From NCBI GenBank assembly GCA_945877855.1, contig CAMDWA010000004.1:1-64000 (forward strand): a stretch of 64,000 nt of DNA, written 5' to 3'. The position numbers and the translations under genes were made by a program. The DNA comes from Thermoflexus hugenholtzii JAD2. Lineage in GTDB: Bacteria > Chloroflexota > Anaerolineae > J036 > Brachytrichaceae. This document shows, one piece after another, positions 1 through 53,143 of the stretch. Under the pieces are notes generated by a model that was not told the DNA's origin, did not search any database, and was given only the letters and a program-made list of their open reading frames with translations. Each line of letters begins with the position of its first letter. Position 1 is the first letter of the stretch.

Positions 1-1602
1 ATCACTATTGATTTGCGCCGAGGCGTGAATCGCCGCGATTTTTTGCGGCTTAGCGCATTGCTGGGCGCTGGCATCGCCAGCGGGCTAGGTTTGTCGGCCT
101 GTGCACCTGCCGCAACACCCCCACCCGCAGCCCCCAGCGGGGCCGCCCCGGCCCCCGCCAAACCGAGCGGCCCCAATGGCACACTCACCATCGCGCAAGG
201 CGTTGATATTGAGAGCATCGATCCTTATATCACCACCAGCGGTGCGAGCAAGGGCATCATGTGGACGATTTTTGATCGCTTGGTTTACCGCGATATCAAT
301 TTAAAGGTGCAACCGGGCTTGGCACTAAGCTGGAAAAATGTGGATGACAATACTTGGGAATTTAAACTACGCGAAGGAGTGAAATTTCATAATGGCGAAG
401 CCTTTAACGCCGAAGCCGTGAAATATAGCTTTGCGCGTTTTGTTGACCCCAATATTAAGAATGGTTATGCCACTTTATTTAAGCCGGTGAAAGAAGTGGA
501 AGTGGTGAACGATAGCACGGTGCGGGTGAAGACCTCAGAGCCATTTGCCGAATTGGTAGAGGTGTTGGCCAGCTATTGCGAAATATTGCCACCCAAAGCC
601 GCCGCCGACAAAGATGCCTTTTACAAGAACCCCGTCGGCACTGGGCCATATAAATTTGTGTCATGGACGGCCAATGATAAATTTGTGGTCGAGGCGGCTG
701 GCCCACATTGGAGCGGTGAACCGCGTATGAAGCAGGTGGTCTTCCGCCCGATTCCCGATGGCACCACTCGTATTACCGAGTTGCGTTCGGGTGGGGTAGA
801 CATTATTACCAATGTGTCGCCACTTTTGTTGGGCAATTTGCAAAATCAGCCCGGGATTGCGCTTGAGCGGGCGACTGGCTCCGGCTCAATTATCCTCATC
901 CCTAATGTGACCAATAACCCGATGTTTGCCAAGAAGGAAGTGCGGCAAGCCTTGCAATATGCCATTGATAAAGAAGCCATTATCAAGACTGTGTTGCAAG
1001 GGGCAGCCGTGCCGCTGACTAGCCCCTTCCCCAAGGGTGTGGCCGGTGGTTTTGTCGATGATCTCAAGATGTATCCGTATGATCCAGACAAGGCCAAGTC
1101 GTTGCTGAAGCAAGCCGGGGCCGAAAACCTAAAGGTGGCATTTAAGGCCCCCAATGGGCGCTATTTGCAAGACAAGGCAGTAGCCGAGGCGATTGTGGGT
1201 CAACTGGATAAGGTTGGCATCAAGGCCGAACTTGAGACGATTGAGTGGAGCCAATATGTGCAGGGCATTATTGGCCGCAAGTATGAGCTGTTTTTGCTCA
1301 GCCAAGGCGGTGTGCAGGTTGGCCCAGCCGCCACCACCAACTGGAGCAGCAAAATCAAAGGCATCGCTTGGCAGGGTTATACCAATCCCGAAGCCGATGA
1401 TTTGATGGACAAGGCCGCGAAAACCGTTGACGGGGCACAGCGCCAAGCCACGTATGAGAAATTGATGCGTTTGGTTTGGGATGAGTCGCCGTGGATTTTC
1501 TTGTATCACCAACAAGATATTTATGGTTTGCGTGACCGTGTGAAGAATTTCAAAGCCACCTCTGAAGGTAGCTTGCGTCTTGAAAAGACGGAAGTGGTTT
1601 AA
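1..1602 (+). CDS. ABC transporter substrate-binding lipoprotein, family 5 (5' end at window edge)
   Basis: Extracellular binding protein of the SBP_bac_5 family (peptide, nickel, opine or glutathione uptake), tethered to the membrane and delivering ligand to an ABC permease that is not in the window. The N-terminus has a twin-arginine motif (NRRDFLRL), a hydrophobic stretch and a lipobox ending LSAC, followed by a Pro/Ala linker. The family core begins near TLTIAQGVDIESIDP and contains the typical LREGVKFHNGEAFNAEAV segment. The frame is open from base 1; the first start-like codon is TTG at 13, so the true start may lie upstream of the window. Its ligand cannot be read from sequence; nearby peptidases make peptides plausible. 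Confidence 0.85.
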   Translation: MTIDLRRGVNRRDFLRLSALLGAGIASGLGLSACAPAATPPPAAPSGAAPAPAKPSGPNGTLTIAQGVDIESIDPYITTSGASKGIMWTIFDRLVYRDINLKVQPGLALSWKNVDDNTWEFKLREGVKFHNGEAFNAEAVKYSFARFVDPNIKNGYATLFKPVKEVEVVNDSTVRVKTSEPFAELVEVLASYCEILPPKAAADKDAFYKNPVGTGPYKFVSWTANDKFVVEAAGPHWSGEPRMKQVVFRPIPDGTTRITELRSGGVDIITNVSPLLLGNLQNQPGIALERATGSGSIILIPNVTNNPMFAKKEVRQALQYAIDKEAIIKTVLQGAAVPLTSPFPKGVAGGFVDDLKMYPYDPDKAKSLLKQAGAENLKVAFKAPNGRYLQDKAVAEAIVGQLDKVGIKAELETIEWSQYVQGIIGRKYELFLLSQGGVQVGPAATTNWSSKIKGIAWQGYTNPEADDLMDKAAKTVDGAQRQATYEKLMRLVWDESPWIFLYHQQDIYGLRDRVKNFKATSEGSLRLEKTEVV

Positions 1603-1782
1603 GAAGGAAGAATCAAGAATCAAGAACTAAGAACTAAGAACTAAGAACTAAGAACCAAGAATCAAGATTAAAGACACTACTCGCCCTCATTGGGGGAGAG
1701 ATCAGGGTCGGGTGTTACTCTCAACTCTTAACTCTCAAATCTTCTATCTTGGCTCTTGGTTCTTGATTCTTGGTTCTTTTTC
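1601..1782. repeat. Facing heptamer arrays (AAGAACT type) before the amidohydrolase gene
   Basis: From the stop codon of the binding protein, ten 7-mers run without a break from 1601 to 1670 (AAGAATC, AAGAACT x4, AAGAACC and variants). From 1741 to 1782 six 7-mers of the opposite sense follow (CTTGGTT, CTTGATT and variants), and 1717-1740 has ACTCTCA/ACTCTTA 7-mers. The two sides are reverse complements, so a long imperfect hairpin can form. The array ends 4 nt before the probable ATG at 1787. Confidence 0.85.
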
Positions 1783-1786
1783 AATT

Positions 1787-2995
1787 ATGACAACCTTATT
1801 AACAAATTGCCATGTGATTCCATGCATCACCGAAGGTGAAGCGATTATTCATGATGCCGCTGTGCTGATTGAGGGTAAGCGGATTAAGGCCGTAGGTAAA
1901 GCGGCAGATTTTGGTGACAGCGAAGGAGTGCAAATTCGTGATCTGGGCGGGCGTTATGTGATGCCCGGGTTGATGAATATGCACGTGCATTTGGGGTTGT
2001 CGTTACCCGGGGCGACACAGGCCGCAGCCGCCAAAGAAACCGAGATGGACCTGTTTGCCCGTGCGCTTAAAAACGCACATGATGCCTTGCACGCTGGAGT
2101 GACATTTGTGCGCTGTGTGGGCGAAAAAAATGGGCTGGACTTTGCTTTGCGGCGGGCGTTTACCAGCGGTTTGTTGCAGGGGCCAAATATTGTTTGCGCT
2201 GGCCGCGCCGTCATCATCACCGGCGGGCATGGCTGGCAGGGGTATGGCAGCATCGAAGCCGACGGCGCCGACGAATGGCGCAAGGCGGCGCGCTCACAGC
2301 TAAAGCTGGGGGCCGATTTGGTCAAATTGATGATCACAGGCGGCATCGCTGGTGAACATGAGGCCATTCGTGACGCGCAAGCCACCTTTGACGAGATGCA
2401 AGCCGCATGTGAGGCCGCGCATAATGCTGGCAAACATGCCACCGCCCATGCTGGCTCGCCCAAAGCCATTCAAGATGGCATTAACGCTGGGCTTGATTGC
2501 ATCGAGCATGGCTACTTTTTAGATGACGCTACGGTTGAATTGATGATCAAAAAAGGCACGTGGTTGTGCCCAACCTTGTGCGTGAGCCGTGCCGAGCAAT
2601 ATATGCGCAATCTCGGCGTGCCGCAATACATGATCAACAAGAGTTTACGGGCGGGTGAAGACCACGCCAAGGCGTATCAATTGGGGTTAAACAGCGGTGT
2701 CAAAATTGCGATGGGCACCGATATGTTGCCGGGTGAGCCAAACGAAGGCACGGTGGCGACCTATCGCGAAATGGAATTTATGAGTGAATTGGGCATGGCT
2801 CCTCATCAGGTGTTGCTCTCAGCCACCCGTAACCCAGCCCAATTAAACCAGTTGGCTGATCAATTCGGCGCAGTGGCGGCTGGTTATCAGGCCGATTTGA
2901 TTGCGCTAACCGCCAACCCCGCCGAAAATACCCGCAATATTCGCAGTATTGATTGGGTGATGAAGGGTGGGGCGGTGTATCGTAATTTGGGCTAG
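1787..2995 (+). CDS. Amidohydrolase family protein (imidazolonepropionase/prolidase-like)
   Basis: Metal-dependent hydrolase of the amidohydrolase superfamily, probably cleaving a C-N bond in a cyclic amide, dipeptide or related compound. The N-terminal beta-sandwich is followed by the metal motif HVHLGL (in MPGLMNMHVH), a barrel with later His ligands in ATAHAG and IEHG, and the catalytic Asp in AMGTDMLPGE. Length, about 402 residues, fits the family. ATG 1787 is chosen because the protein from MTTLLTNCHVIP aligns with family N-termini; translation from 1712 would read through heptamer repeats. It lies 184 nt after a family-5 binding protein, which may supply the substrate, but the link is inference. 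Confidence 0.85.
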   Translation: MTTLLTNCHVIPCITEGEAIIHDAAVLIEGKRIKAVGKAADFGDSEGVQIRDLGGRYVMPGLMNMHVHLGLSLPGATQAAAAKETEMDLFARALKNAHDALHAGVTFVRCVGEKNGLDFALRRAFTSGLLQGPNIVCAGRAVIITGGHGWQGYGSIEADGADEWRKAARSQLKLGADLVKLMITGGIAGEHEAIRDAQATFDEMQAACEAAHNAGKHATAHAGSPKAIQDGINAGLDCIEHGYFLDDATVELMIKKGTWLCPTLCVSRAEQYMRNLGVPQYMINKSLRAGEDHAKAYQLGLNSGVKIAMGTDMLPGEPNEGTVATYREMEFMSELGMAPHQVLLSATRNPAQLNQLADQFGAVAAGYQADLIALTANPAENTRNIRSIDWVMKGGAVYRNLG

Positions 2996-3053
2996 AACAT
3001 GGATAAAGAGGATGGACAGGATTTTTATCCTGTCCATCCTCTTTATCCATGTT
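2996..3053. terminator. Perfect 27-bp hairpin with T-run, bidirectional terminator
   Basis: Arms 2996-3022 and 3027-3053 are exact reverse complements around the loop TTTT. On the plus strand the second arm runs into GTTTTTTAATTTT, a good Rho-independent signal for the amidohydrolase gene, which ends at 2995. The stop codon of the opposing gene (TAA on minus, 3043-3045) lies inside the right arm. The length and perfection exceed a normal terminator. Confidence 0.85.
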
Positions 3054-3564: not shown

Positions 3565-3576
3565 TATTGCTTGCGC

Positions 3577-7104: not shown

Positions 7105-9372
7105 TTAGCGCATTGCCGTCGCCAATACATTCGCCATTATTTCAATGGCAACTCCCGCCTCAGCGGGGTTAAGAATGAGCGGCGGCGCTAAGCGCACCGC
7201 ACTGGGGCCAGCGCTCAGCACCAGCAAGCCTTGCTCAAAAGCAATTTGTTGCACACGATCACGCAATTCACCATCTTCGCAATTGCCACCGGCCTGTTTC
7301 ACAAAATCGAGACCGATCATCAACCCGCGCCCGCGCACATCGCCCAAACGCGGGAACTCGGCCTTTAGCTCATTCATGCCATTCATTAACACCGACCCAA
7401 CATGGGCAGCGTTATTGGTTAGCTCGCGTTCAACCAAATCGAGCGTGGCATGGGCGGCGGCGCAAGATACGGCGTTGCCGCCAAACGTGCTGCCATGCGC
7501 CCCGGCTTGCCATGTCATCAATTCTTTGCGAAACAAGGTTGCGCTGAGCGGGTAGCCGCTGGCTAGGCCTTTGGCCAGCACTACCACGTCGGGTTCGATG
7601 CCCTCATGCTCAAAGGCAAAAAATTTGCCGGTGCGCCCAACCCCCGTTTGCACCTCGTCCATAATCAGCAAAATGCCATATTCTTTGGCTAAAGCCTGTA
7701 GTTTTTGAATAAACCCGGGCGGTGGCACAATATAACCGCCTTCACCTTGAATTGGCTCCATCACAATGGCGGCCACATCTTCGGGGGCACAACTGGTTTT
7801 AAACAGATGCTGAATATGCGCAAGCACGGCATCGCCACAGGTGGCGGCGCTGCTGCCCAAGGGCGGGCGAAATGGATTGGGGAATGGCACATGCGTCACG
7901 GGATATGCCATCGCCCCAAACCCTTTTCGATACTTGGGGTTGCTGGCTGTTAATGACAACGAACCAGCGCTACGCCCATGAAACGAACCTGTAAATGCCA
8001 TGAAGTTTGGGCGCTTGGTGTGATAACGCGCAAACTTCAAAGCCACCTCAATGCCTTCGGTGCCGCTGTTGCCAAAAAACACCTTATAGTTGTTGTTTAG
8101 CTTGGCGCTTAGGCGCTCTGCCAACGAAATAACCGGATCGTGCGGAAAAACTGCCGCGCACATATGCGTCATTTTTTGCGCCTGCTCGGTCACTGCCCGC
8201 ACCACGTGGGGGTGGGCATAGCCGGTCGTGCTGACGGCGATCCCGGCCATCAAATCCAAAAATTCATTGCCGTCCACATCCGTAATCCAAACGCCATTGC
8301 CGCGCTCGGCCACAATGGGTATACCCTTGCCGTTGCTGCTGCTCATCACTGCTGCCTCACGCGCCAGCGCCGCTTGGGCGCGTGGCCCGGGCAGGGCGGT
8401 TTTTACACTGGGGCGCTTGGGGTGAATGGGAGATGCAGCGGGCAGGTTGCCATTGAGATTGGGTTGGCGCACAGCGGTTTGGCTGCTAAAAGTGCTTTCA
8501 AAAATCTTGTCGGCATTACCGGCCTCAAAGCCCTCACGGCGCATGGCGCGGGTGATGTCGGTCTTGGCGATGTGGGCATAGGCTGGCATCACCCGCCGCT
8601 CGGCAAATTCGACATAGCTACCGGCGATCATGTGTTTTTCGCCACCGGCAAATTCGGCTTCGATCATTTCGGCCACTGTGCTCGATTGCAACAGCAGCCC
8701 ATCCGGGCTTTGCTTGACTTCGCCGCCGCTGGTGTTTAGTTGCACCCCATTGTGTTTTAAAAATTGGTTAAATTGGGCACAGGTGTCATACCCATTCGGC
8801 AAATTGTGCACACTAATGGTGTAATGATTGAGATAGTAGCGGTTATAAATGACCCATGCGGCATATTCGCTTTCGCCCATCAGGGTGCTAAATTCGGCAT
8901 AAGTGGGCAATGACCATAAAGAGCGGTGCAAAAAGCCATCAACGGCGGCGGCATCGTCTAAATTAAGCGCTAAAACAGGGTCGGTTTTAACCTGATCGGT
9001 ATATTGGGTGATGATGCGTTGTGCCGTGGCGCTTAGCTCGGTCACCCGTAATTCGCTGATAAAAATACGAGGAAATTGCGGGGTGGGGGGTGAATACCAG
9101 AAGGCGTCTAGCTTTTTTTGCGCAAAATGATATTTTTCGCGTCTTTCATAGCCATAATGTAAGAAGATTTTTTCGAGGCTTTGAATACCCAATTGTGGCA
9201 CACCCATGGTGCGAAAGGCAATATGATCGTTTTCGATATCATCGGCCCTGTTGATCAACCCTTCACGTTGCATTATTGTCGTAATGTGGGCGACATCGGG
9301 AACCCGTTGCTGATATCGCCGCATCAGCCCAGCTAAAACGTTGTGGAGGGTTGAAGATTGAGGTGTGTTCAT
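7105..9372 (-). CDS. Fusion of DUF1338 (2-oxoadipate dioxygenase type) and class III aminotransferase
   Basis: A two-domain enzyme of about 755 residues. Residues 1-305 match DUF1338, the family of HglS, an Fe(II) enzyme converting 2-oxoadipate to D-2-hydroxyglutarate in lysine catabolism; likely metal ligands are His in NDHIAFR, His in NHYTISV and Glu in SYVEFAER, plus the family block NADKIFEST. After a 40-residue linker, residues 345-755 form a fold-type I class III PLP aminotransferase, with FFGNSGTE, MDEVQTGVGRTG and the PLP lysine in VLAKGLASG (about residue 600). ATG 9372 is chosen over GTG 9384. The gene diverges from a LysR regulator across an 83-bp region. Lysine or 2-aminoadipate breakdown is the likely role; the amino donor is not determinable. 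Confidence 0.88.
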   Translation of the reverse strand: MNTPQSSTLHNVLAGLMRRYQQRVPDVAHITTIMQREGLINRADDIENDHIAFRTMGVPQLGIQSLEKIFLHYGYERREKYHFAQKKLDAFWYSPPTPQFPRIFISELRVTELSATAQRIITQYTDQVKTDPVLALNLDDAAAVDGFLHRSLWSLPTYAEFSTLMGESEYAAWVIYNRYYLNHYTISVHNLPNGYDTCAQFNQFLKHNGVQLNTSGGEVKQSPDGLLLQSSTVAEMIEAEFAGGEKHMIAGSYVEFAERRVMPAYAHIAKTDITRAMRREGFEAGNADKIFESTFSSQTAVRQPNLNGNLPAASPIHPKRPSVKTALPGPRAQAALAREAAVMSSSNGKGIPIVAERGNGVWITDVDGNEFLDLMAGIAVSTTGYAHPHVVRAVTEQAQKMTHMCAAVFPHDPVISLAERLSAKLNNNYKVFFGNSGTEGIEVALKFARYHTKRPNFMAFTGSFHGRSAGSLSLTASNPKYRKGFGAMAYPVTHVPFPNPFRPPLGSSAATCGDAVLAHIQHLFKTSCAPEDVAAIVMEPIQGEGGYIVPPPGFIQKLQALAKEYGILLIMDEVQTGVGRTGKFFAFEHEGIEPDVVVLAKGLASGYPLSATLFRKELMTWQAGAHGSTFGGNAVSCAAAHATLDLVERELTNNAAHVGSVLMNGMNELKAEFPRLGDVRGRGLMIGLDFVKQAGGNCEDGELRDRVQQIAFEQGLLVLSAGPSAVRLAPPLILNPAEAGVAIEIMANVLATAMR

Positions 9373-9410
9373 AATTGGAGTCACTTACGATGAAAATTTC
9401 TGATACAATC

Positions 9411-10340: not shown

Positions 10341-10370
10341 GGGGATTAGGGATTGGGGATTGGGGATTGG
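10341..10370. repeat. GGGGATT heptamer array forming the 3' end of the Fic gene
   Basis: GGGGATT, AGGGATT, GGGGATT, GGGGATT and a trailing GG follow the LysR stop codon directly. On the minus strand the same bases encode the last Fic residues (SPIPNP) and its stop codon at 10346-10348. No facing array is visible here. Confidence 0.8.
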
Positions 10371-15870: not shown

Positions 15871-16743
15871 ATGGAATGGCAACCCGCTATTGAGGCTTTT
15901 CTGGTCGAAGTGAAATCGCGTGAAACATCGTCGATGAATACTTTGCATGCTTATAAAAATGATTTGGCGCAATTGGTCGATCATTTATCGCAAATTGTGA
16001 GTGGCGAGGGCGCGTGGGCCGCTGTGACAATTGAAAACCTTGAATCGTATATCGCACAAATGACGATAAAAGGCTATTCAAATGCAACCATTGCACGAAA
16101 ACTAGCCGCAGTTAAAACTTTTTTTCGCTGGTTGATGGATAGCGGCTATACCCAAACAAACCCAGCCCAGCGTTTGGCCTCACCAAAATTGACCAAACAG
16201 CCCCCACATTTGTTAACGCAAACCGAAGTGGCTCATTTGATCGCTTCGGCTGGCGCGGCTGGTCAGCCACGCGCTTTGCGTGATCAGGCCTTATTGTCGG
16301 TTTTATATAGCACGGGGATGCGTGTCTCTGAAGTCATTCGACTCAAGTTGAGCGAATTAGACTTGGAGAATAAGCGGGTATTTTGTCGTGGGCGCGGTCA
16401 ATTGCAGCGCCATGTGCCATTAACCGCCCAAACAGTGGATCATATTGCCAACTATTTGGCGAATGGGCGTAATGAATTAATTGGCAGCAAACCTTCAGAT
16501 AGCGTTTTCCTCAACCCGATGGGCGTAGGGCTAACTCGCCAAGCGGTATGGATGATGATTAAACATCACGCTCAAACTGCAAAAATTACGAGTGTGGTTA
16601 CGCCACACACCCTGCGCCATTCACGCGCATCGCATATGGTGAATAGCGGCGAAGACCCACGTCGTGTGCGCGAGTGGTTGGGTCATGCCAATCTATCGAC
16701 AACACAATCTTATATTTCGAAGGCAGTAGTCAGTAATCAGTAG
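15871..16743 (+). CDS. Tyrosine recombinase (XerC/XerD-like)
   Basis: A 290-residue site-specific recombinase with an N-terminal SAM-like core-binding domain (1-105) and C-terminal catalytic domain. Catalytic positions: Arg151 (STGMRVSEV), His246 and Arg249 (HTLRHS), His272 (LGHANLS) and the Tyr nucleophile 281 (TTQSYIS). The beta-hairpin that normally carries a catalytic Lys (GKG in XerD) reads RGRGQLQR, that is, Arg in its place. The last six residues, AVVSNQ, and the stop are encoded by a CAGTAGT heptamer array, so the original C-terminus has been replaced. It could act in chromosome dimer resolution or belong to an integrative element; no attachment site or cassette array was found. Confidence 0.88.
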   Translation: MEWQPAIEAFLVEVKSRETSSMNTLHAYKNDLAQLVDHLSQIVSGEGAWAAVTIENLESYIAQMTIKGYSNATIARKLAAVKTFFRWLMDSGYTQTNPAQRLASPKLTKQPPHLLTQTEVAHLIASAGAAGQPRALRDQALLSVLYSTGMRVSEVIRLKLSELDLENKRVFCRGRGQLQRHVPLTAQTVDHIANYLANGRNELIGSKPSDSVFLNPMGVGLTRQAVWMMIKHHAQTAKITSVVTPHTLRHSRASHMVNSGEDPRRVREWLGHANLSTTQSYISKAVVSNQ

Positions 16744-16815
16744 TCAGTAGCCAGTATTTGAGGCTCAACAATAAATATAACATTCTTGCGCAAAATCAAT
16801 CTGACTACTGACTAC
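16724..16815. repeat. CAGTAGT heptamer array with facing TGACTAC copies
   Basis: Five 7-mers (CAGTAGT, CAGTAAT, CAGTAGT, CAGTAGC, CAGTATT) occupy 16724-16758, and two complementary-sense 7-mers (TGACTAC x2) lie at 16802-16815. The first array starts inside the recombinase reading frame and supplies its stop codon. Confidence 0.82.
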
Positions 16816-16831
16816 TCCCTAACAATTATTT

Positions 16832-17930: not shown

Positions 17931-18686
17931 ATGCAAAAATCCATCATCGTGACCGGCGGCGGGTCGGGCATTGGCAAAAATGTGTGCGAGGCTTTGGCGA
18001 ATGAAGGCTATGGGGTGTTGGTGGCCGATTTGCGGCTGGATGCCGCCCAACAAACAGCGCAAGCGCTGGCAGCTCAGGGCCATTTGGCTACCGCGTGTGC
18101 CGTTGATATTGCTAGCCAAAGCGATTGTGCAGCAATGGCACAGGCCGCCGTTGCTGCTTTTGGGCGGGTCGATGGCTTGGTCAATTGTGCTGGCATCAGC
18201 AAACCGGTTGACTCGTTGGTTTGCAGCGCCGACGATTGGCAACGTATGATCGACATTCAACTGAATGGCGCATTTTTTGCGGCGCAGGCGGTTGGGCAAC
18301 AATTGGTGGCGCAAGGCACGGGTGGGGCATTGGTGTTTATTTCATCGACCAATGCCGAGGCTGCTTTTCCGCGCCGCGCCTCATATTGCGCGGCCAAGGC
18401 TGGGGTTGCCATGCTGACCAAGGTGCTGGCAATTGAATGGGCGCAGCATCAAATCCGCGTTAATGCGGTTGGCCCGGCTTATGTTGAGACTGAAATGACC
18501 TTGCGCAATATCGCCGCCGGTAATGTCAGCCGTGAGGCCATCGAGAAGCGCATACCGCTGGGGCGCTTGTGCAAACCGGGCGATGTGGCCGATGCGGTCT
18601 CGTTTTTGCTGTCAGACAAATCGAGTTTCATCACCGGCCAGTCGTTGTATGTTGATGGGGGGTGGTTGGCGTATGGGTATTTTTGA
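17931..18686 (+). CDS. Short-chain dehydrogenase/reductase
   Basis: A 251-residue SDR oxidoreductase of the classical type. The NAD(P)-binding TGGGSGIG lies at residues 8-15, Asp in VADLRLDA after beta-2 suggests NAD(H) preference, NCAG is at the usual place, and the catalytic Ser (FISSTNA), Tyr and Lys (SYCAAK) are present. The C-terminus has the family pattern SSFITGQSLYVDGG. The gene is 4 nt from the M19 dipeptidase and probably co-transcribed, though the chemistry linking them is unclear. Substrate unknown; sugar alcohols, hydroxy acids or acyl thioesters are all possible. Confidence 0.9.
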   Translation: MQKSIIVTGGGSGIGKNVCEALANEGYGVLVADLRLDAAQQTAQALAAQGHLATACAVDIASQSDCAAMAQAAVAAFGRVDGLVNCAGISKPVDSLVCSADDWQRMIDIQLNGAFFAAQAVGQQLVAQGTGGALVFISSTNAEAAFPRRASYCAAKAGVAMLTKVLAIEWAQHQIRVNAVGPAYVETEMTLRNIAAGNVSREAIEKRIPLGRLCKPGDVADAVSFLLSDKSSFITGQSLYVDGGWLAYGYF

Positions 18687-20073: not shown

Positions 20074-20696
20074 AATCTTTTCAACGTCACCCAGCACCAG
20101 AGGTGCTCATTAAAAATCATGCTAAGTGGACGCAGCAGTATCAGCAAAAGGTGATTGAGAATCCCAACAAGCCAAGTGTGGTTTTTGATTGGCCGAGGGT
20201 AAATGGTCAACGGGTTTCTGAACAACTGATTTTTATTTTAGAACAGCAAACTCAATTTCATTGTTCATACTGTGATGGTGGGTATCGGTTGAGAGGCACG
20301 ATTGATCATTTTAAGCCAAAGTCAGATACCCGTTTTATTCAGCACGCATTTGATTGGGACAATTTATATGTGGCTTGTAAAGACTGCCAAGACTTTAAGC
20401 GTAGTAAATATGACGATGTTTTATTGCGTCCCGACGATCCCGATTTTCATTTTGAGAAGTATTTTGAGTATGATTTTTGGCGGCACGAGATTCACCCTCA
20501 GAAGCTGGCTTCGCTCGAAGATCAACATCGTGCCCAAATAACGATTGATGTGTTGTGTTTAAATCACCCGAAACGTTGTGAAACACGTCGTGCGCAATTC
20601 AAATTAAGCCGTAATTCAATGTTAAATGATAAAGATTTTGAGATTGATATATGTAACTATCGTTTTATTTTGGAATTGCCGGAAGTATCATTGTGA
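20070..20696 (+). CDS. ptuB: Septu-like HNH endonuclease (PtuB)
   Basis: A 208-residue HNH nuclease. The zinc-binding pairs Cys65/Cys68 (HCSYCDGG) and Cys103/Cys106 (ACKDCQDFK) frame the active core, with the metal-binding His80 in TIDHFKPKS and the Asn in DWDNLYVAC. This arrangement is the one seen in PtuB and in retron-associated HNH effectors. It starts within the last codons of ptuA (4-nt overlap), so the two are coupled. Its 3' end overlaps the convergent amylosucrase gene by 9 bp, so the insertion left no spacer. Predicted role: DNA degradation upon phage sensing. Confidence 0.85.
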   Translation: MKSFQRHPAPEVLIKNHAKWTQQYQQKVIENPNKPSVVFDWPRVNGQRVSEQLIFILEQQTQFHCSYCDGGYRLRGTIDHFKPKSDTRFIQHAFDWDNLYVACKDCQDFKRSKYDDVLLRPDDPDFHFEKYFEYDFWRHEIHPQKLASLEDQHRAQITIDVLCLNHPKRCETRRAQFKLSRNSMLNDKDFEIDICNYRFILELPEVSL

Positions 20697-22640
20697 AATG
20701 AGCCACATCATCTGATAAGGCTTTATAACAAGCGATTGTGTCAAATCAACCAAATCACCGCTGATGATATCGCGGGCGAAGTTGGGCAAGGGCTGCCCAT
20801 GCAGCCACACGGTTGGCGTGTGTTCGCTAAAGTTGGCGACGACTAAGACTTTGGCATTTTCGTGTTTGCGTTCAAAAGCCAACACGTGGTCGCTGTTGGT
20901 GTAAATCAAATGGCGTTGATTTCCGCCAAATGCAGGGGTGTTTTTGCGAAGTTGGACGAGATGGCTTAAGGCCTGATAAATAGCTCCTGCCGGTGTGCCG
21001 ATGTCGCTGCGTTGGCTATAAGCCTGGATGTCGGCCTTGGGGCGATGCACCCAGCGGCTATCGTGCTTTTTGTGCGGGTCTGTGGCAAAGTCATAATCGT
21101 TGAGCGTGCCAACTTCATCCCCCAAATAAATGAGTGGAATGCCACCAAAAGCCAAGGCCACGCCATGCAATAACACAATACGGCGGATGGCGTGCTGATG
21201 GGTGAGATGTTTGGCGGGTTGCTCAAGGCCGGTTAACGAAGCACACATGCCCGAAATCCGACAATCGCCGGTCTTGGGGTTTTCTTGAAATGGCAAGCCT
21301 TGGGCAAAGCTGCCCGGAAACCGTGAGGTGTAAAATGAATTGAGAAAACGGCGATGATCATAACCATTGATGCCGAGTTCTGCCGCATCTTCGTCGCTAA
21401 AGGTCCAGCCGATATCATCATGACAGCGCACATAATTAATCCATGCTGCCTCGGCAGGCAAATTAAAGCGCCCCTTTTCTAACGATTTGCGTAATAAACG
21501 CACTTGGCGGGTTGCTAATGATTCCCATAATAAGGCCATCAGCAATGGGTTGTAACTCAGTTGACATTCACCCGCCGAGATGTATTTCACCACGTCGTCG
21601 GGGTGCACAATGGCCTCAGATTTAAACAGCAACGATGGTGAAGCGATGCGGCACATCGTGTTGAAGGCTTGGATAAGGGTATGGGCTTGTGGCAAATTTT
21701 CACAGGTTGTGCCCATTTGTTTCCAAATAAAAGCCACTGCATCCATACGCAAAATCTCGACCCCGATATTGGCGATGAACAGCATTTCTTCTGACATGGC
21801 ATTAAACACGGCTGGGTTCGCGTAATTTAGATCCCATTGAAAAGTGTGAAATGTTGTCCAAATCCATTCTTGTGATTTTAGATTTTGGCTGCTGGCTTCT
21901 GATGTCTGACTGACTACTGACTTCTGACTTCTGATATCTGGTAGCGGCGAAAATGCGCCCGGGTGTTCATCGGGGAAAATTTCACGCAGGGTGCGCTCAT
22001 ATTGGTCGGGCAGGGTGCGATCAGGGAAGATAAGGTAAAAATCGCGGTAGTATGGATCACCGGCCAAGGCTTTTTGCGCCCAGATATGCTCGTTGCTGGT
22101 GTGGTTAAAAATAAAATCGAGGCACAAAGCGATCCCGTTGGCGCGTAATGCATCGGCCAAGGCCATCAGTTGTGACATATTACCGAGGTCTGGGTAGACT
22201 TCGCGGTAGCTACTTACGGCATAGCCGCCGTCGCTGTTGTCTTTTGGCGCGTTAAACAACGGCATCAGATGTAAATACGTTAGGCCTAATTCTTTGAAAT
22301 AGGGAATTTTTGCGTAAATACCACTTAAATCGCCAGCAAAAAGATCGACGTAACATACGCCCCCAAGGTGTTGTTGTGACTGAAACCAGGCTGAGTTTTG
22401 TTCGCGCTGGGCATCGCGTGATTTGAGTGCCGTTGGGCGGGCCAGCCACATCTTGGCTGCGGTCACAAGAATCGACTCAAGTTGCCATGGGAAATCGGGG
22501 TTGGCCCCATATAACGCATGTAAATGTTGATAGAGGGTCGGATAATGTTGGTTGAGTCGGGTTACAAATTGTTGCCACGTTGGGCATTGTGTGTCTGCGC
22601 CTGTCTTTAATGCAATGCGCTCAAGAATTTCATGTTTCAT
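20688..22640 (-). CDS. ams: Amylosucrase (GH13 subfamily 4)
   Basis: A 650-residue glucan-forming enzyme that transfers glucose from sucrose to build alpha-1,4-glucan and releases fructose. It follows the Neisseria enzyme closely: nucleophile Asp300 (ILRMDAVAF), acid/base Glu342 (FKSEAIVHP), transition-state Asp near 408 (RCHDDIGWTF), and typical stretches such as TFQWDLNY and IYLGDEVGTLND. Between GAFSPLPD and EWIWTTF there is an in-frame insert of about 22 residues rich in Ser, Gln and Lys, encoded by ten heptamer repeats. It is the last gene of the sugar operon; ATG 22638-22640 directly adjoins the stop of the cupin gene. Confidence 0.93.
   Translation of the reverse strand: MKHEILERIALKTGADTQCPTWQQFVTRLNQHYPTLYQHLHALYGANPDFPWQLESILVTAAKMWLARPTALKSRDAQREQNSAWFQSQQHLGGVCYVDLFAGDLSGIYAKIPYFKELGLTYLHLMPLFNAPKDNSDGGYAVSSYREVYPDLGNMSQLMALADALRANGIALCLDFIFNHTSNEHIWAQKALAGDPYYRDFYLIFPDRTLPDQYERTLREIFPDEHPGAFSPLPDIRSQKSVVSQTSEASSQNLKSQEWIWTTFHTFQWDLNYANPAVFNAMSEEMLFIANIGVEILRMDAVAFIWKQMGTTCENLPQAHTLIQAFNTMCRIASPSLLFKSEAIVHPDDVVKYISAGECQLSYNPLLMALLWESLATRQVRLLRKSLEKGRFNLPAEAAWINYVRCHDDIGWTFSDEDAAELGINGYDHRRFLNSFYTSRFPGSFAQGLPFQENPKTGDCRISGMCASLTGLEQPAKHLTHQHAIRRIVLLHGVALAFGGIPLIYLGDEVGTLNDYDFATDPHKKHDSRWVHRPKADIQAYSQRSDIGTPAGAIYQALSHLVQLRKNTPAFGGNQRHLIYTNSDHVLAFERKHENAKVLVVANFSEHTPTVWLHGQPLPNFARDIISGDLVDLTQSLVIKPYQMMWLISQ
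21873..21942. repeat. Heptamer array inside the amylosucrase gene
   Basis: Ten consecutive 7-mers (for example GACTGAC, TACTGAC, TTCTGAC, TTCTGAT) fill 70 nt with no facing array. They encode the extra Ser/Gln-rich loop between the SPLPD and EWIWTTF segments of amylosucrase without breaking the frame. Confidence 0.8.
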
Positions 22641-23024
22641 TTACAATTCTGCCCATGTTGGAATAACACAAATAAACCCTAGAGGTTCATTGCCAACTGC
22701 TTCAAATTGGTGAATTTCGTTGCTATCTGTAAAAACGGAATCGCCGGTATTAAGCTCGTGCCATGCGTCATTGAGCATTACGCGACCTTTGCCTTGCACA
22801 ATGACCACCCCATGTTGATGGGGGTGTTGGTCATAGGCTGTTTTGCCGCCGGGCGGCACCGTGAAATAACGCACGATAAAATCTTTTGCCCCATCGGCTT
22901 TTCCCACTAATACTTGTTTCGTGATGTCAGCCGAGGCATCAGATCGATATTCGGTGACAGGCACTTGTGGATACTGCCAAGTCGCTGCATTTGCTTGCGC
23001 CGTTTGATGATTAATTTTTGCCAT
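22641..23024 (-). CDS. Single-domain cupin protein
   Basis: A 127-residue cupin_2 protein. The first cupin motif carries the metal-binding residues HPHQHG with Glu missing from its usual place but a Tyr/Asp context (AYDQHPHQHGVVIVQGKG is the local pattern), and the second motif has His in NEIHQF. Such proteins bind a metal and act as sugar isomerases, sensors or dioxygenases; the specific job is not readable. It begins inside the last codons of the trehalase gene (14-nt overlap) and ends directly before the amylosucrase start, so it belongs to the alpha-glucoside operon. Confidence 0.82.
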   Translation of the reverse strand: MAKINHQTAQANAATWQYPQVPVTEYRSDASADITKQVLVGKADGAKDFIVRYFTVPPGGKTAYDQHPHQHGVVIVQGKGRVMLNDAWHELNTGDSVFTDSNEIHQFEAVGNEPLGFICVIPTWAEL

Positions 23025-24327
23025 AGATATTATTGATATCTGATGTTGTGTTCAAAACAGATAATCGCTTTTTGAAATTGATATAAACGCCGTTTGTCCA
23101 ACCAAAGCCTTTGACCGTGCCATAAACACCGTGCGCGGGCGGGGTATTTGGTTTAATGACGTTGTATTTTTCCAGCAACGTATGGTCTCGTTTAAAACCA
23201 TCTTCACAGGTTTGGCACCAACGTTGCCGAATATCATTTGCCTCATTCATATAGCCATATCGATCTAGCCCTTCAGTGACTAACCATTGTAATGGTGCCC
23301 AGCCGTTGGGTGTGGCCCATTGATGATTGTTGCTGGTCGATAGAGAGGTGAGCAGGCCACCCTCGGCTAAAAATTGTGGCAACCAGCGGTTAACGATGTC
23401 ATTGGCTTGGGCTTGGGTGGCCCAACCTGCCCATAATGGGTAAAAGCCAGCTAACGAGGCATGAAAATTGGGGCGTTTCTCGACCCAGTTGTAATCATAA
23501 AAAAAGCCATGATCTTCATGCCAAAAAATAGTTTGCATTGTTTGGGCGCGGGCTTGGGCTATTTTGCGCCACTCTTCACTTAATGCGATATTGCCTAACA
23601 TCTCCGCCATCTCAGCGATGTCGTTTTCAGCGACATATAAAATGCTATTCAGACACACCGGCACATAATCGAGCCAGCGACCAGCTTCGCCGCCTGCTAT
23701 ATCACCGCCACAACGTGCCGAGTGATCCCAGCCGCTTTCGCATGATGCCATAATATGTAAGGCATTCACATCGGCATAGCGATTGAGTGCTGAGTGCTGA
23801 GTGCTGAGTGCTGAGTCATTAGGATGTACAGGGATTTCGACATTTTCCCTTGCGGTTTCCAGTTTAACAATTCGCCGATAGCCAGGCGGCAGTGTTTCAT
23901 TCATCCAAAAACCATCATGCTCACGAATGGCCGCAGCCAGCATTCGTTTTAAGAAAGCGGTTTCATCATGAGGCGCATTTTTTTTGACAATGGCATGGGC
24001 TAAACGCACAAGGCGCGTAAAAAATGGCGGTTGACTGCGCGACGTGAAATAATAGCGCGTGCCATTGGGCACAAACCCAAAACGCTCAATCAGATAAGCC
24101 ATATTTTCAGCCATATCGATCACCCGTTGCTCATGGCGGGTGTCGATCACACCTAAGGCGATAAAATAACTGTCCCAATAATACATTTCTTGGAACATGG
24201 GGTTGCTGGGGTCGGCAGCCGGAATGAGATAAGGTCGAGGCACGCCAATAAGCGTGCCTGTATCTGCCCTATTTTCACGGGTGACTAAATCCCAGAATGT
24301 GTCAAGATAAGCGTTTAATTGCATCAT
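23011..24327 (-). CDS. treA: Trehalase-like glycoside hydrolase (GH37)
   Basis: About 438 residues, probably hydrolysing alpha,alpha-trehalose to two glucose units in the cytoplasm (no signal peptide). Family signatures are visible: FQEMYYWDSYF, YFTSRSQPPFF, ESGWDHSAR with the catalytic Asp, QWATPNGWAP, LEKYNV with the Glu that from memory corresponds to the E. coli catalytic Glu496, and GFGWTNGV. It is shorter than E. coli TreA. A heptamer array adds NDSALSTQHSAL some 15-20 residues before the catalytic GWD. The start overlaps the GH1 stop (TGATG). Other alpha-glucosides cannot be excluded as substrates. Confidence 0.85.
   Translation of the reverse strand: MMQLNAYLDTFWDLVTRENRADTGTLIGVPRPYLIPAADPSNPMFQEMYYWDSYFIALGVIDTRHEQRVIDMAENMAYLIERFGFVPNGTRYYFTSRSQPPFFTRLVRLAHAIVKKNAPHDETAFLKRMLAAAIREHDGFWMNETLPPGYRRIVKLETARENVEIPVHPNDSALSTQHSALNRYADVNALHIMASCESGWDHSARCGGDIAGGEAGRWLDYVPVCLNSILYVAENDIAEMAEMLGNIALSEEWRKIAQARAQTMQTIFWHEDHGFFYDYNWVEKRPNFHASLAGFYPLWAGWATQAQANDIVNRWLPQFLAEGGLLTSLSTSNNHQWATPNGWAPLQWLVTEGLDRYGYMNEANDIRQRWCQTCEDGFKRDHTLLEKYNVIKPNTPPAHGVYGTVKGFGWTNGVYINFKKRLSVLNTTSDINNIYGKN
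23785..23819. repeat. GAGTGCT heptamer array inside the trehalase gene
   Basis: Four identical GAGTGCT units and one GAGTCAT are in tandem and in frame, encoding the Ser/Ala/Gln-rich stretch SALSTQHSAL on the minus strand. No facing array is present. Confidence 0.82.
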
Positions 24328-27100: not shown

Positions 27101-27168
27101 GAATTACGAATTACGAATGAGATCGCAAGTTCCCAAATTCGTAATTCGTAATTTGTAATTCGTAATTG
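27101..27168. repeat. Facing GAATTAC / GTAATTC heptamer arrays
   Basis: GAATTAC x2 and GAATGAG at 27101-27121 face GTAATTC, GTAATTT, GTAATTC, GTAATTG at 27141-27168. The arrays are reverse complements and fill the 74-nt gap between the permease and GH32 genes, so they could weaken or stabilise the operon mRNA at this junction. Confidence 0.85.
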
Positions 27169-29478: not shown

Positions 29479-29555
29479 ATTAGTTGATTAAGGGGTTAAT
29501 TGACCATTCGTGACTTGTGAGTCATAAATCAACCAATCAACCAATCATCTAATCA
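29479..29555. repeat. Facing arrays with AATCAACC 8-mers between aglE and aglF
   Basis: AATCAACC, AATCAACC, AATCATCT, AATCAACC (8-nt period) occupies about 29527-29558 and faces the complementary-sense GATTAGTTGATTAAGG at 29479-29494. It fills the 160-nt gap between the binding-protein and permease genes, a place where operons of this kind often have an RNA structure that lowers downstream expression. Confidence 0.75.
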
Positions 29556-29586
29556 ACCATATAAACATCTACGTAAGTAGTACGTT

Positions 29587-33725: not shown

Positions 33726-33782
33726 GCCGATTTCACGATATCTCCCTATGGCTACGGCATAGGGAGATATCGTGAAATCGGC
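33726..33782. repeat. Perfect 25-bp hairpin, TTTCACGAT family, copy 1
   Basis: Arms 33726-33750 and 33758-33782 are exact reverse complements around GCTACGG. The arm contains TTTCACGATATCTCCC, shared in part with the hairpins at 35486 and 52217. The sequence GCGAAAAC follows, and related GAAAC/AAAACC tails follow the other copies. Confidence 0.85.
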
Positions 33783-33873
33783 GAAAACTTGTTCACATTT
33801 GCTAACGTGACATTGTTAAGTTAGTGGTAAAAATATTTTTGCACCTATAACCAACATACTATCTCATACGAAC

Positions 33874-34032
33874 AATACCTTCGCCATCTCGCCCGTGAAT
33901 GAATTCACGGTCTAAAAATTTCAAACGCGCTAAAGCGCGTTCGCCGCAATCTTAATGCGTTTTAACGCATTTGTTTGTTTCAGGTCGTGAATTCATTCAC
34001 GGGCAGGCAATCGCAAATTGGCGAGGGTATTG
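33874..34032. repeat. Composite palindromic element with four tetraloop hairpins
   Basis: Outer arms 33874-33885 (AATACCTTCGCC) and about 34020-34031 pair with one mismatch; next inside, 19-nt arms 33891-33909 and 33986-34004 are exact reverse complements. Within lie four small hairpins with 4-nt loops: 33893-33910 (loop TGAA), 33924-33941 (AACGCGC, loop TAAA), 33954-33971 (AATGCGT, loop TTTA) and 33986-34001 (loop TTCA). Loops of one and four, and of two and three, are complementary. Confidence 0.82.
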
Positions 34033-49392: not shown

Positions 49393-49402
49393 CGTTAGCG
49401 TG

Positions 49403-52210
49403 ATGGATGCCCTCAATTCTAATAATCCTAATATTCAAGTCCAGTCACTCGGACAAAGCTTCTGGTATGACAATATTCAACGTAGTCTCATCCAGAACGG
49501 TGAATTGCGTCAGCTCATTGAAGATTATGGTGTTTTAGGCATTACCTCAAATCCAGCCATTTTTGAAAAGGCAATTGTATCGAGCAGCGATTATGATTTG
49601 GACATACTCGAATTGGCACAAAGCTGTGATGACGCAAAATGCATCTATGAGCGCTTTGCCATTGCCGATATTCAGGCTGCCGCCGATATGCTCGAACCCA
49701 TTTATGAGCAAACACAAGGGTTAGATGGTTATGTCAGCCTTGAAGTTTCGCCATTTTTGGCGCGTGATTGCAATGGCACGATTGCCGAAGCCCGTCGTTT
49801 GAATCGTGAAGTCGCCCGCAAAAATTTAATGGTGAAGGTTCCTGCAACGTCTGAATGTATCCCTGCAATCCAGCAGCTTATTGAAGATGGCATTAATATC
49901 AACGTTACCCTCATTTTTTCGTTAGATGGTTATGAGCAGGTGGCACGCGCCTTTATTGCGGGGTTGGCTGCTCGCGCCCAAAAAGGCCAATCGTTGAATG
50001 TGGCCTCTGTCGCATCATTTTTTGTCAGCCGTGTTGATGTGTTGGTAGATAAATTGCTCGACGAGAAAATTGCCCTTGCGCCTGAGCAAGAAAAAGCCCA
50101 TTTGATTACCCTTAAAGCCAAGTCTGCTATTGCTAACGCTAAATTGGCCTATGAAATTTTCACACGTATTTTTGCAGAAAAAGAATGGCAGGCATTGGCA
50201 AAACAAGGCGCTCGCCCACAACGGGTATTGTGGGCCAGCACCAGCACCAAGAACCCGACTTTGCCAGCCACTTATTATGCCGATGCACTCATCGGCCCAC
50301 AAACGGTCAATACCCTGCCGCCTGCCACATTAAAGGCTTTTCGTAGTCAGGGCACTGTGTCAACCACCCTCACCCGTGATCTGAAAGCCGCGCACAAGGT
50401 GATGAAGGATTTGGCTGCGGCGGGTATTTCGATGCAGCAAGTATGGCAAAAACTGCAAGATGACGGCGTAACTTTATTTGCCGATGCCTTTAAGTCATTA
50501 TTGGCTAGTGTTGATGGCAAACTCGCCGCCGTTGCAGTGCGTGGGCATGGCAGCAATTTGGGTGATGCCGAGGCCTATGTCGGCGAATTGGTTAAATTGA
50601 AGGCAGCGGCCAAAGTGTGGGCTAAAGATGCGACCTTTTGGAGCACTGAACCTGAGCATGTTAAATTGATTAACAACCGTTTGGGTTGGTTAAATAGCAC
50701 GACGTTTATGCGTGACCGCATCGCCGAAATTAAAAAACTGCGCGAAGATGTGATTGCGGCTCGCTACACAGATGTGATTGTGTTGGGCATGGGCGGCAGC
50801 GCCCTTGCGGCAGAAACGTTGCGCCAGCTATTTGCTGCCAAATCAACGGCTGAAAAAGCCAAATTGCGGCTACACGTGTTAGATACCACAGACCCCATTA
50901 CGGTGCGGCATTTAACCGAATCGATTGACGATTTATGCAAGACGCTTTTTATTGTCGCCAGCAAATCGGGCAGCACGATTGAAATTACCTCGTTTTACAC
51001 CCATTTTCGCAGCAAAATGGATGCATGTGCGGGCGAGGCGGCGGGTATGCACTTTGTCGCTATTACCGATGAAAACACCCCATTACAACAATTAGCCGCC
51101 GCAGAACAATTTCGGCATGTTTTTATTAACCCGGCGAATATGGGGGGCCGTTATTCAGCATTGTCCTATTTTGGGCTGGTTGCGGCGGGTTTGATGGGCC
51201 TGAATCTTGATATGTTGCTGGATCGTGCTGAGGCGATGGCACGCGCTTGTAAATATGATAGCGAAGTAAACCCGGGCTTGTGGCTGGGGGCCATAATAGG
51301 CGGGGCAGCGCTAATTGGGCGCGATAAATTGACATTTATCATGTCGCCCCAAATCGCCAGTTTTGGGTTGTGGGTGGAACAACTAATTGCCGAAAGCACC
51401 GGCAAACGTGATCGCGGTGTCGTGCCGATTATTGGCGACGAAGCCAATTTAAAGCAGGTTGATCGTTTGGGCAAAGATCGGTTGTTTGTGCATTTTAAAA
51501 TGGCGGGTGATATCACGCACGATAAATTGATTGGTGTCCTTAAAAAGGCGGGTATGCCGTTGATCGAGATTACGCTGGCAGATTTGTTTGATATTGGGGC
51601 CGAGTTCTTCCGCTGGCAATTCGCTACCGCCGTTGCAGGGGCGGTATTGGGGGTTAATCCATTCGATGAACCGAATGTGGCTGAGAGCAAGATCAACACC
51701 AAGCGTTTGTTGGGTGAATATGAGCGGACCGGCCAATTTATGATTGAGGCTAGCAGTCGTAGCCCGAATGGTCAATTAAACAAATTTTTGCGCAGCGCCA
51801 AGGCGGGTGATTACGTCTCGGTGCAGGCTTATCTGCCTTATTTGCCCCAAGTTGATGATTTGTTGCAAAAACTGCGTGTGAGCATTGGCACACGTTATGG
51901 CGCACCGGTGACGGTTGGCTATGGCCCGCGTTTTTTGCATAGCACTGGTCAATTACACAAGGGTGGGGCCAATAATATTGTGGTGCTGCAACTCACCTAT
52001 GATGCCGATCAAGACATGGGTATTCCGGGCGAGCCATATACTTTTGGCACGCTCATGCGGGCGCAAGCCTTGGGTGATTACGAGGCACATCGCGCTCATT
52101 TTCATCGCGTGATGCGTTTGCATCTGGGCAAAGACCCTGCCGCAGCCCTCAAAAAATTGGTTAAATCGGCCAAAGGTCAAGTTCGTAAGCCCGTTACTAA
52201 GAAGGTGTGA
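49403..52210 (+). CDS. Bifunctional transaldolase / glucose-6-phosphate isomerase
   Basis: A 935-residue fusion joining two reactions at fructose-6-phosphate. Residues 1-370 are transaldolase (Schiff-base Lys in NLMVKVPATSE, about residue 145; early GITSNPAIFEKAI; KNPTLPATYYADALIG). Residues about 400-930 are a glucose-6-phosphate isomerase of the SIS type (VLGMGGSALAAETL, VASKSGSTIEI, NMGGRYSALS, a catalytic His/Glu region FLHSTGQLHKGG). Fusions of this kind are known in several bacterial groups. It links glycolysis, the pentose phosphate pathway and the glucose released by the hydrolases in this window. GTG 49400 is a possible alternative start. Confidence 0.96.
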   Translation: MDALNSNNPNIQVQSLGQSFWYDNIQRSLIQNGELRQLIEDYGVLGITSNPAIFEKAIVSSSDYDLDILELAQSCDDAKCIYERFAIADIQAAADMLEPIYEQTQGLDGYVSLEVSPFLARDCNGTIAEARRLNREVARKNLMVKVPATSECIPAIQQLIEDGININVTLIFSLDGYEQVARAFIAGLAARAQKGQSLNVASVASFFVSRVDVLVDKLLDEKIALAPEQEKAHLITLKAKSAIANAKLAYEIFTRIFAEKEWQALAKQGARPQRVLWASTSTKNPTLPATYYADALIGPQTVNTLPPATLKAFRSQGTVSTTLTRDLKAAHKVMKDLAAAGISMQQVWQKLQDDGVTLFADAFKSLLASVDGKLAAVAVRGHGSNLGDAEAYVGELVKLKAAAKVWAKDATFWSTEPEHVKLINNRLGWLNSTTFMRDRIAEIKKLREDVIAARYTDVIVLGMGGSALAAETLRQLFAAKSTAEKAKLRLHVLDTTDPITVRHLTESIDDLCKTLFIVASKSGSTIEITSFYTHFRSKMDACAGEAAGMHFVAITDENTPLQQLAAAEQFRHVFINPANMGGRYSALSYFGLVAAGLMGLNLDMLLDRAEAMARACKYDSEVNPGLWLGAIIGGAALIGRDKLTFIMSPQIASFGLWVEQLIAESTGKRDRGVVPIIGDEANLKQVDRLGKDRLFVHFKMAGDITHDKLIGVLKKAGMPLIEITLADLFDIGAEFFRWQFATAVAGAVLGVNPFDEPNVAESKINTKRLLGEYERTGQFMIEASSRSPNGQLNKFLRSAKAGDYVSVQAYLPYLPQVDDLLQKLRVSIGTRYGAPVTVGYGPRFLHSTGQLHKGGANNIVVLQLTYDADQDMGIPGEPYTFGTLMRAQALGDYEAHRAHFHRVMRLHLGKDPAAALKKLVKSAKGQVRKPVTKKV

Positions 52211-52216
52211 TTATTG

Positions 52217-52271
52217 GCCAATTTCACCATCTCCCCGAAAGCGTCGCTTTCGGGGAGATGGTGAAATTGGC
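52217..52271. repeat. Perfect 26-bp hairpin, TTTCACGAT family, copy 3
   Basis: Arms 52217-52242 and 52246-52271 are exact reverse complements around GTC, 6 nt after the tal-pgi stop. Shares ATTTCAC-AT-CTCCC with the copies at 33726 and 35486, but its apex differs. Confidence 0.85.
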
Positions 52272-52290
52272 GAAACCTTTTATCCCTAAA

Positions 52291-52316: not shown

Positions 52317-52318
52317 GC

Positions 52319-52996: not shown

Positions 52997-53005
52997 AGGG
53001 CGGTG

Positions 53006-53011
53006 ATATTA
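53006..53011 (-). promoter_or_regulatory. -10 box of cmk
   Basis: TAATAT on the minus strand ends 9 nt before ATG 52996; no ribosome-binding site between. Confidence 0.45.
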
Positions 53012-53033
53012 CCAGAAGTTGTGAGGTAGCTTT

Positions 53034-53143
53034 GAGCCGTGAGCTTTGAGCCTTGAGCCTTGACACACGAGTCACGAGTCATAGTCATGTAGTATGAGCC
53101 GAAAGCTCAAAGCTCAAGGCTCATGGCTCATAGATCATGGCTC
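53034..53143. repeat. Facing GAGCCTT / AAAGCTC heptamer arrays
   Basis: GAGCCGT, GAGCTTT, GAGCCTT x2, GACACAC, GAGTCAC, GAGTCAT run unbroken from 53034 to 53082 and face AAAGCTC x2, AAGGCTC, ATGGCTC, ATAGATC, ATGGCTC at 53102-53143. The arrays are reverse complements around a 19-nt centre, between cmk and the SIS-domain gene. Confidence 0.88.

Follow-up and report, generated by a model that had tools for sequence, protein, structure and literature searches.

Facing arrays of heptamers as possible dispersed palindromic cassettes in an Anaerolineae genome and in other phyla

Results

Facing heptamer arrays form cassettes with reused units

The window, a 64,000-nt stretch of contig CAMDWA010000004.1 (contig 4) of a metagenome-assembled genome (MAG) from the Anaerolineae (Chloroflexota), carries tandem arrays of degenerate 7-nt units that often lie in facing, reverse-complementary pairs. 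We found that these pairs form cassettes in which two arms of about four heptamers face each other across a free loop. The units come from a small, genome-specific set, each unit keeps one orientation, and the outer end of arms built from the unit AATTACG is fixed in phase. We tentatively read the arrays as dispersed palindromic intergenic cassettes that would be recognised through their arms and reshaped by 7-nt slippage and arm-to-arm recombination; to this reading we give slightly less than an even chance. A first-pass annotation of the window had described units that were unrelated between loci, each locus having its own, and had proposed that a period and a symmetry spread rather than a sequence. 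These points did not hold: because units are reused, their orientation is fixed and two unit families recur in other phyla, it is the specific sequence that is spread or rebuilt, not merely the period and symmetry.

The source genome is a 4.43 Mb draft of 246 contigs with 78.7% completeness, and the genome-wide array figures given here rest on 1.23 Mb of it, taken as stretches (labelled L033, L046 and so on). Congeneric genomes were AQU-02 (G001), REEB501 (G003) and G002. Arrays were called by a lag test requiring 18 of 21 matches, loci were re-examined by tandem-repeat, sequence and lag analyses, and neighbouring genes were placed by Pfam. In the window, the lag test identified nine period-7 arrays and one period-8 array, and no arrays at lags 3–6 and 9–13. 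Sixty fourth-order Markov simulations of the window yielded zero arrays, so the period-7 signal, for which the first-pass annotation had suggested an autocorrelation check, is far above chance. The 1.23 Mb contained 193 period-7 and 29 period-8 arrays, and periods other than multiples of 7 or 8 were nearly absent. A reverse-complement partner lay within 150 bp at 93 of 140 array loci, compared with five in a reversed-unit control; the claim that period and facing layout are conserved therefore extends to the genome, with period 7 dominant and period 8 second. The arrays thus have the features of heptameric long simple sequence repeats, namely tandem 7-nt units, occurrence above chance and location mainly outside genes. 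An Rfam scan of the window returned no match at gathering thresholds.

The commonest units in the 1.23 Mb were AATTACG (27 arrays), AACCATT (equivalent to TTAATGG, 23 arrays) and AAGGATG (14 arrays), followed by AAAGTGG (10), AGCTATG (7), AGCCATG (7) and others; CAGTAGT alone occurs at about 20 other places of the window genome. Across nine unit families of this genome, 67 pairs were oriented inward and none outward, and mixed orientation was found in none of its 20 exact-unit families. The strand with a purine majority forms the first-read (5′) arm in 19 of 20 unit families, with GATTTTA, AGCTTTG and AAAAGCT as exceptions; this rule is strong, not absolute, and we do not claim it as a law.

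Arms mostly comprise four to five units. Those built from AATTACG start in the same phase, the base ahead of the first unit being random, and their inner ends vary: no further match was present outside the first unit in 24 of 28 AATTACG arms of the window genome and in 128 of 162 arms from other genomes. By a looser method, phase entropy was lower at the outer than at the inner end for AATTACG, AATGGTT and AAGGATG, and the fixed outer phase was weaker or absent in arms of AGCCATG and AAAGTGG. We rejected an origin of the second arm as a mirror copy of the first: agreement of unit variants is no better within loci than between them, and neither arm is therefore a recent copy of its partner.

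The loops measure 0–60 nt and are mostly unrelated. A few share the word TCGCAAG/CTTGCGA, yet shared 7-mers did not exceed the shuffled maximum and no hairpin signature stood out, and a common core hairpin was accordingly rejected. A requirement for G-quadruplexes was rejected as well. Four tracts of three G residues, on either strand, were present in only 6 of 193 arrays, and the AATTACG unit is devoid of G-tracts; the preference for four units thus needs no quadruplex.

Arrays occupy short gaps between co-directional genes

Gene positions were inferred from a simple codon-based gene model. By this model, 94 array loci lie in co-directional gaps, 14 in convergent and 7 in divergent gaps, 20 in coding sequence and 5 at stretch ends. 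The array-bearing gaps are short (median 99 nt), and the median distance between array and gene is 7 nt on the upstream side and 6 nt on the downstream side. Array loci are fewer than expected in divergent gaps (7 compared with about 18–24) and show no enrichment in convergent gaps (14/115 compared with ~16% expected), which together make a role as intrinsic terminators unlikely; we therefore set this role aside.

A location only a few nucleotides from stop and start codons of co-directional genes would suit hairpins that act in polycistronic mRNA (in processing, stability or attenuation) or as protein sites, with selection maintaining their period and orientation. Four facing pairs of the window fold well above shuffled sequences (z −2.9 to −6.7), as is expected of facing arrays, and sites remain occupied while the unit changes. 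However, the missing convergent enrichment disfavours terminators, the congener G002 is without arrays where sampled, arrays also occur inside genes, unit number and type drift, and other palindromic elements substitute for arrays at orthologous gaps. We consider such selected structures a rather improbable explanation of the arrays.

Cassettes are inherited between close relatives and change unit between distant ones

In comparison with REEB501, in which flanking sequences are ~92–97% identical, every comparable scored facing pair was occupied in both genomes. The pairs differ by whole units, point changes and insertion of other small elements; such whole-unit length change among relatives is characteristic of heptameric simple sequence repeats (SSRs). 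In REEB501 the variant unit GTGATTC is present three times, the variant having spread to neighbouring units. Loops were inverted at two window pairs, at 53034 in REEB501 and at 27101 in AQU-02.

Against AQU-02 (~75–82% identity), several orthologous gaps hold another unit, so that alignment of orthologous regions revealed the unit switching that the first-pass annotation had suggested looking for. The switches comprise AATTACG versus GATTTTA at L046:10178, GGAAACT versus AGAGTTG at L046:5644, AGCCATG versus AATTACG at L044:11553, AAAGTGG versus AAGTGGC/AAGTGCT in both arms at L046:9161 and, within a gene, CATCCTT versus AAGAACC at L036:4763. Cassettes are therefore inherited vertically at ~5% divergence, and one unit is replaced by another at ~20%. 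Vertical conservation, which the first-pass annotation had named as a finding that would count against its own reading, is thus seen at short range (pairs occupied in both the window genome and REEB501); at the longer range, units have switched in AQU-02.

Some coding arrays replace sequence instead of adding to it (L046:9483 and the trehalase gene of the window), and at some orthologous gaps other palindromic elements take the place of the array. Genus comparisons showed no recent empty site. G002 had no AATTACG tandem match genome-wide, and the 92 kb examined were free of period-7 arrays; this patchiness within one genus supports the cassette reading.

The arrays also serve as landing sites for other small elements. 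In the window genome, elements of ~91 and ~165 bp are inserted into heptamer arrays at L046:11700–11790 and in the L033 copy 17932–18224, and both are absent in REEB501; the ~165-bp element is seemingly flanked by duplicated ATTATGAAT.

Much of this change could be produced by slippage alone, if the polymerase slipped by 7 nt at hairpin-prone sites and the arrays arose independently, similar units being convergent; slippage at such sites was reportedly proposed for heptanucleotide repeats by Mrazek and co-workers. The ranking of period 7 first and period 8 second, the whole-unit differences between orthologues, the spread of GTGATTC to neighbouring units, the drift of both arms at one site (AAAGTGG to AAGTGGC/AAGTGCT) and the non-homologous loops all agree with it. 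Purely local slippage nevertheless leaves unexplained the recurrence of identical units at dozens of loci and beyond the phylum, the one orientation per unit (67:0 in the window genome and 116:2 across genomes, see below) and the single start phase of AATTACG arms, and we judge it unlikely as the sole process.

AATTACG pairs recur across phyla and in phages

We scanned ~85,000 species genomes for inward AATTACG pairs and at least 106 stretches matched. Among the matches listed, carriers represent about ten phyla and include Bacteroidota (Prevotellaceae, Parabacteroides, Chitinophaga), Cyanobacteriota (Planktothrix, Pseudanabaena, Nostoc), Chloroflexota, Acidobacteriota, Planctomycetes, Desulfobacterota, Ignavibacteriae, Latescibacterota, Gemmatimonadota, Clostridiales and Peribacteraceae. 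When 30 of these genomes, selected because each had one or more inward pairs and including AQU-02 and REEB501, were searched whole, AATTACG gave 116 inward and 2 outward matches, the latter being one junction found in two Pseudanabaena. Inward TTARTGG pairs were identified in AQU-02, REEB501 and, within the Bacteroidota, one Dysgonamonadaceae MAG, and TTAGTGG pairs in one Prevotellaceae MAG. Among 400 sampled genomes of the phylum, the exact TTAATGG pair was present in the window genome only, which indicates a patchy occurrence. The unit sets of other genomes differ but are likewise of period 7. Nostoc linckia contains both GGGGATT and AATTACG units. On a Trichormus variabilis plasmid, 200 kb contained 8 arrays, none of them in a facing pair, which agrees with the published observation that Nostoc plasmids are nearly devoid of such arrays. 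A text search of the open-licence literature retrieved no description of AATTACG tandem pairs, and the only paper with tandem CAGTAGT letters concerned primers and was unrelated.

Arrays stand at the ends of some contigs, and the window genome, AQU-02 and REEB501 are all fragmented draft MAGs, as might be seen if the arrays were products of assembly or sequencing. This explanation is refuted by orthologous arrays that independent MAGs share with species-specific differences, and by the same cassettes in the isolates Chitinophaga niastensis, Nostoc linckia and Pseudanabaena; we give it practically no credence.

About a dozen cassettes of the Prevotellaceae genome Pc512_bin92 have one 24-nt loop in common, which demonstrates that whole cassettes have been copied there; this is the only genome in which dispersal by copying was shown. 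The same genome harbours a higher-order array (L382:10738–10865), in which a 46-bp unit containing four AATTACG heptamers occurs in three direct copies.

The viral database IMG/VR yielded three AATTACG pairs, all of them inward. Two of these occupy gaps in structural operons, one between the major head protein gene and the head-tail adaptor region and the other before a tail assembly protein gene. In a 60%-identical relative of the latter phage, an overlapping stop-start is found at that place and there is no array; in relatives of the former, the gap is either almost empty or filled by short palindromic sequences of other kinds. These phage cassettes, together with the overlapping stop-start in the relative, support the cassette reading. 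The gap after the major head protein gene of the viral contig L391 contains the palindromic repeat CCCTTCGACGGGCTCAGGG in the place of the AATTACG pair of a related phage contig.

Two candidate enzyme families do not co-vary with the arrays

Two enzyme families were searched in the genus, the Y1 transposases (PF01797) and the reverse transcriptases (RVT_1, PF00078), and gene non-detection in these drafts was read with their incompleteness in mind. PF01797 counts were 5 in the window genome, 5 in AQU-02, 0 in REEB501 and 3 in G002. Being present in array-free G002 and not found in array-bearing REEB501, Y1 transposases of the REP-associated tyrosine transposase (RAYT) type were rejected as co-varying machinery. 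Reverse transcriptases were rejected in the same way, since they were detected in the window genome only (three genes) and in neither the AQU-02 nor the REEB501 draft.

The latter result bears on a further explanation, in which both 3′ ends of a break would be extended with the same templated heptamer in a telomerase-like manner and then joined. Such healing would generate inward pairs of independent arms, each of about four units and with a single outer phase, around free loops. The inward orientation, the fixed outer and variable inner boundaries, the non-mirrored arms, the unrelated loops and the purine-rich 5′ arm of most unit families in the window genome are in accordance with this mechanism, as are the coding arrays that replace rather than extend sequence. 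On the other hand, the AQU-02 and REEB501 drafts, both of which carry arrays, yielded no reverse transcriptase gene, many units per genome would require many templates, and the purine rule is broken by three units. We regard break healing as quite unlikely. In its boldest form, a widespread undescribed enzyme system might write purine-rich heptamers, templated by RNA or protein, onto 3′ ends at breaks; inward arrays would then be scars of joined ends, with AATTACG and TTAATGG as the commonest products across phyla. This we put forward as a long shot.

Array loci and neighbouring elements of the window

Tandem-repeat, sequence and lag analyses confirmed all eight array loci of the first-pass annotation, as well as the reverse-complement array facing five of them (at 1601, 16724, 27101, 29479 and 53034). 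In the first pair, the left arm (unit AAGAACY, 1601–1667, + strand) begins at the stop codon of an upstream SBP_bac_5 gene (13–1602), the loop (1668–1746) contains a second short repeat, ACTCTCAAATCTTA, and the right arm (TCTTGGT, the reverse complement of the left arm; 1747–1778, − strand) ends beside a downstream amidohydrolase gene. A lone GGGGATT array (10341–10370, +), G-rich on the + strand, is located at the stop codon of a LysR gene. The CAGTAGT arm (16724–16756, +) overlaps the 3′ end of a phage-integrase-family gene (15871–16743) and is shorter by 20 bp in REEB501; its right-hand partner is CTGACTACTGACTACT (16801–16816, −).

Two loci are not intergenic and lie in frame within coding genes. 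The TTCTGAC array (21873–21942, −) is inside an alpha-amylase gene (20688–22640, −); it is about 17–21 bp shorter in REEB501, depending on the alignment, and the AQU-02 gene has a second heptamer, GATTTTA, beside it. The GAGTGCT array (23785–23819, +) is inside a trehalase gene (23011–24330, −) and is missing from REEB501 and AQU-02, in which other sequence occupies that variable linker.

The AATTACG pair has a left arm (27101–27118, +) of 2 units compared with ~10 in AQU-02, a loop (27119–27135) inverted in AQU-02 relative to the window genome and REEB501, and a right arm of CGTAATT (27136–27167, −). The period-8 relative combines a degenerate left arm, GGTTGATT (29479–29503, +), with a right arm of the 8-mer AATCAACC (29527–29559, −) that was detected by the lag test. 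In the last pair, the left arm (GAGCCKT family, AGCYDTG; 53028–53066, +) is followed by a loop (53067–53100) that is inverted between REEB501 and the window genome and by a right arm of the GGCTCAT family (53101–53143, −), which stops 6 nt short of a SIS-domain gene (53149–54210, −).

Other palindromic elements share the window. A palindrome-rich element of ~140–160 bp at 33882–34023 (containing CGTGAATGAATTCACG, AACGCGCTAAAGCGCGTT and ATGCGTTTTAACGCAT) has more than 20 copies in REEB501 with 80–94% identity. Long hairpins at 33726–33791 and 52216–52277 belong to a [G/C]CCGATTTCAC..GTGAAATCGG / CCAATTTCAC..GTGAAATTGG family with 27 similar elements in the 1.23 Mb, and this family fills orthologous gaps that carry heptamer arrays in congeners. 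Among the coding regions, an open reading frame (ORF) at 7105–9384 has aminotransferase class-III and 2-oxoadipate dioxygenase/decarboxylase (HGLS) domains and is a possible fusion, and a single-frame ORF at 49400–52210 has transaldolase and phosphoglucose isomerase domains.

Discussion

According to the cassette reading, cassettes would increase in number within a lineage through copying or insertion that is sequence-specific and directed by the arm, comparable to the behaviour of the REPIN and MITE elements discussed below. Their arms would be kept regular and altered by 7-nt slippage during replication of hairpin-forming DNA, and recombination between the arms would flip the loop. Over longer times, as the AQU-02 comparison showed, another unit takes over the slot. 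The cassettes would be mostly neutral passengers, tolerated in short co-directional gaps and purged from promoters and coding sequence. Transposon-like copying accounts for the unit sets, the fixed ends, the orientation, the patchiness and the Prevotellaceae copies, but not for the unrelated loops of the window genome.

Several results weigh against this reading. Copying of the transposon type predicts alike loops, and loops of the same unit in the window genome are alike only in the weak shared word; it likewise predicts some loop homology between phyla, and none was seen. Arms of one locus share unit variants no more than arms of different loci, neither of the two enzyme families searched tracks the arrays in the genus, and the filled and empty phage sites L469/L470, which are too diverged to decide the matter, showed no target duplication.

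Cyanobacterial short tandemly repeated repetitive (STRR) sequences are degenerate heptamers dispersed between genes. The first-pass annotation was correct to name them as a known parallel: the arrays described here are likewise degenerate heptamers scattered between genes, but they belong to another phylum and facing pairs are their rule. Closer still are the dispersed GGGAATC heptamers of Xanthomonas, which prefer four units and were linked to G-quadruplexes (Rehm et al, 2015; PMC4692102). They form 70–75 convergent pairs per genome with the G-rich strand inward, lie mainly between aligned ORFs, are depleted between divergent ORFs and are vertically conserved with varying length; Nostoc PCC 7120 has GGGGA(C/T)T heptamers with few facing pairs (PMC4692102). 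The convergent pairs, the arms of about four units and the preference for aligned over divergent ORFs are common to both systems. Unlike in Xanthomonas, many unit families coexist in the genome studied here, most of them without G-tracts, and loop inversion, unit switching and the single outer phase go beyond the Xanthomonas description. TAACTGA repeats of Beggiatoaceae, cyanobacteria and Bacteroidetes are patchy, with horizontal transfer suspected, and are direct repeats, nearly all unpaired, upstream of start codons (MacGregor, 2015; PMC4679880). They resemble our arrays as a patchily distributed heptamer unit common to distant phyla, and no TAACTGA dimers were found in the 1.23 Mb of the window genome.

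Repetitive extragenic palindromic (REP) sequences and their hairpin-forming doublets (REPINs), with their RAYT transposases, are short palindromic cassettes located between genes, in which two inverted recognition parts enclose a variable middle, and they multiply in the genome (PMC3116915). Our cassettes are palindromic and intergenic with inverted ends as well, but their arms are heptamer arrays of many sequences and Y1 transposase presence does not follow them; a cassette conserved together with its loop, as in REPINs, was observed in Pc512_bin92 and not in the genus, where only a weak word is shared. Miniature inverted-repeat transposable elements (MITEs) are also small, intergenic and patchy with inverted-repeat ends, a resemblance strengthened by the fixed outer ends of AATTACG arms; their loops, by contrast, are not conserved in the genus, and the one phage comparison, too diverged to count either way, showed no target duplication.

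To our knowledge, earlier accounts of heptamers (STRRs and a 2007 survey of prokaryotic SSRs) always concerned a single unit or lineage and were given a slippage or G-quadruplex reading. What is new here is that pairs of the Xanthomonas type are joined with sharing of units across phyla, to which orientation, phase, loop inversion and unit switching are added. The rules found, comprising the unit set, the orientation, the four or so units, the outer phase, the free loop and the occurrence in several phyla and phages, hold for units that form no quadruplex and are hard to obtain by slippage alone. With them, an old oddity becomes testable.

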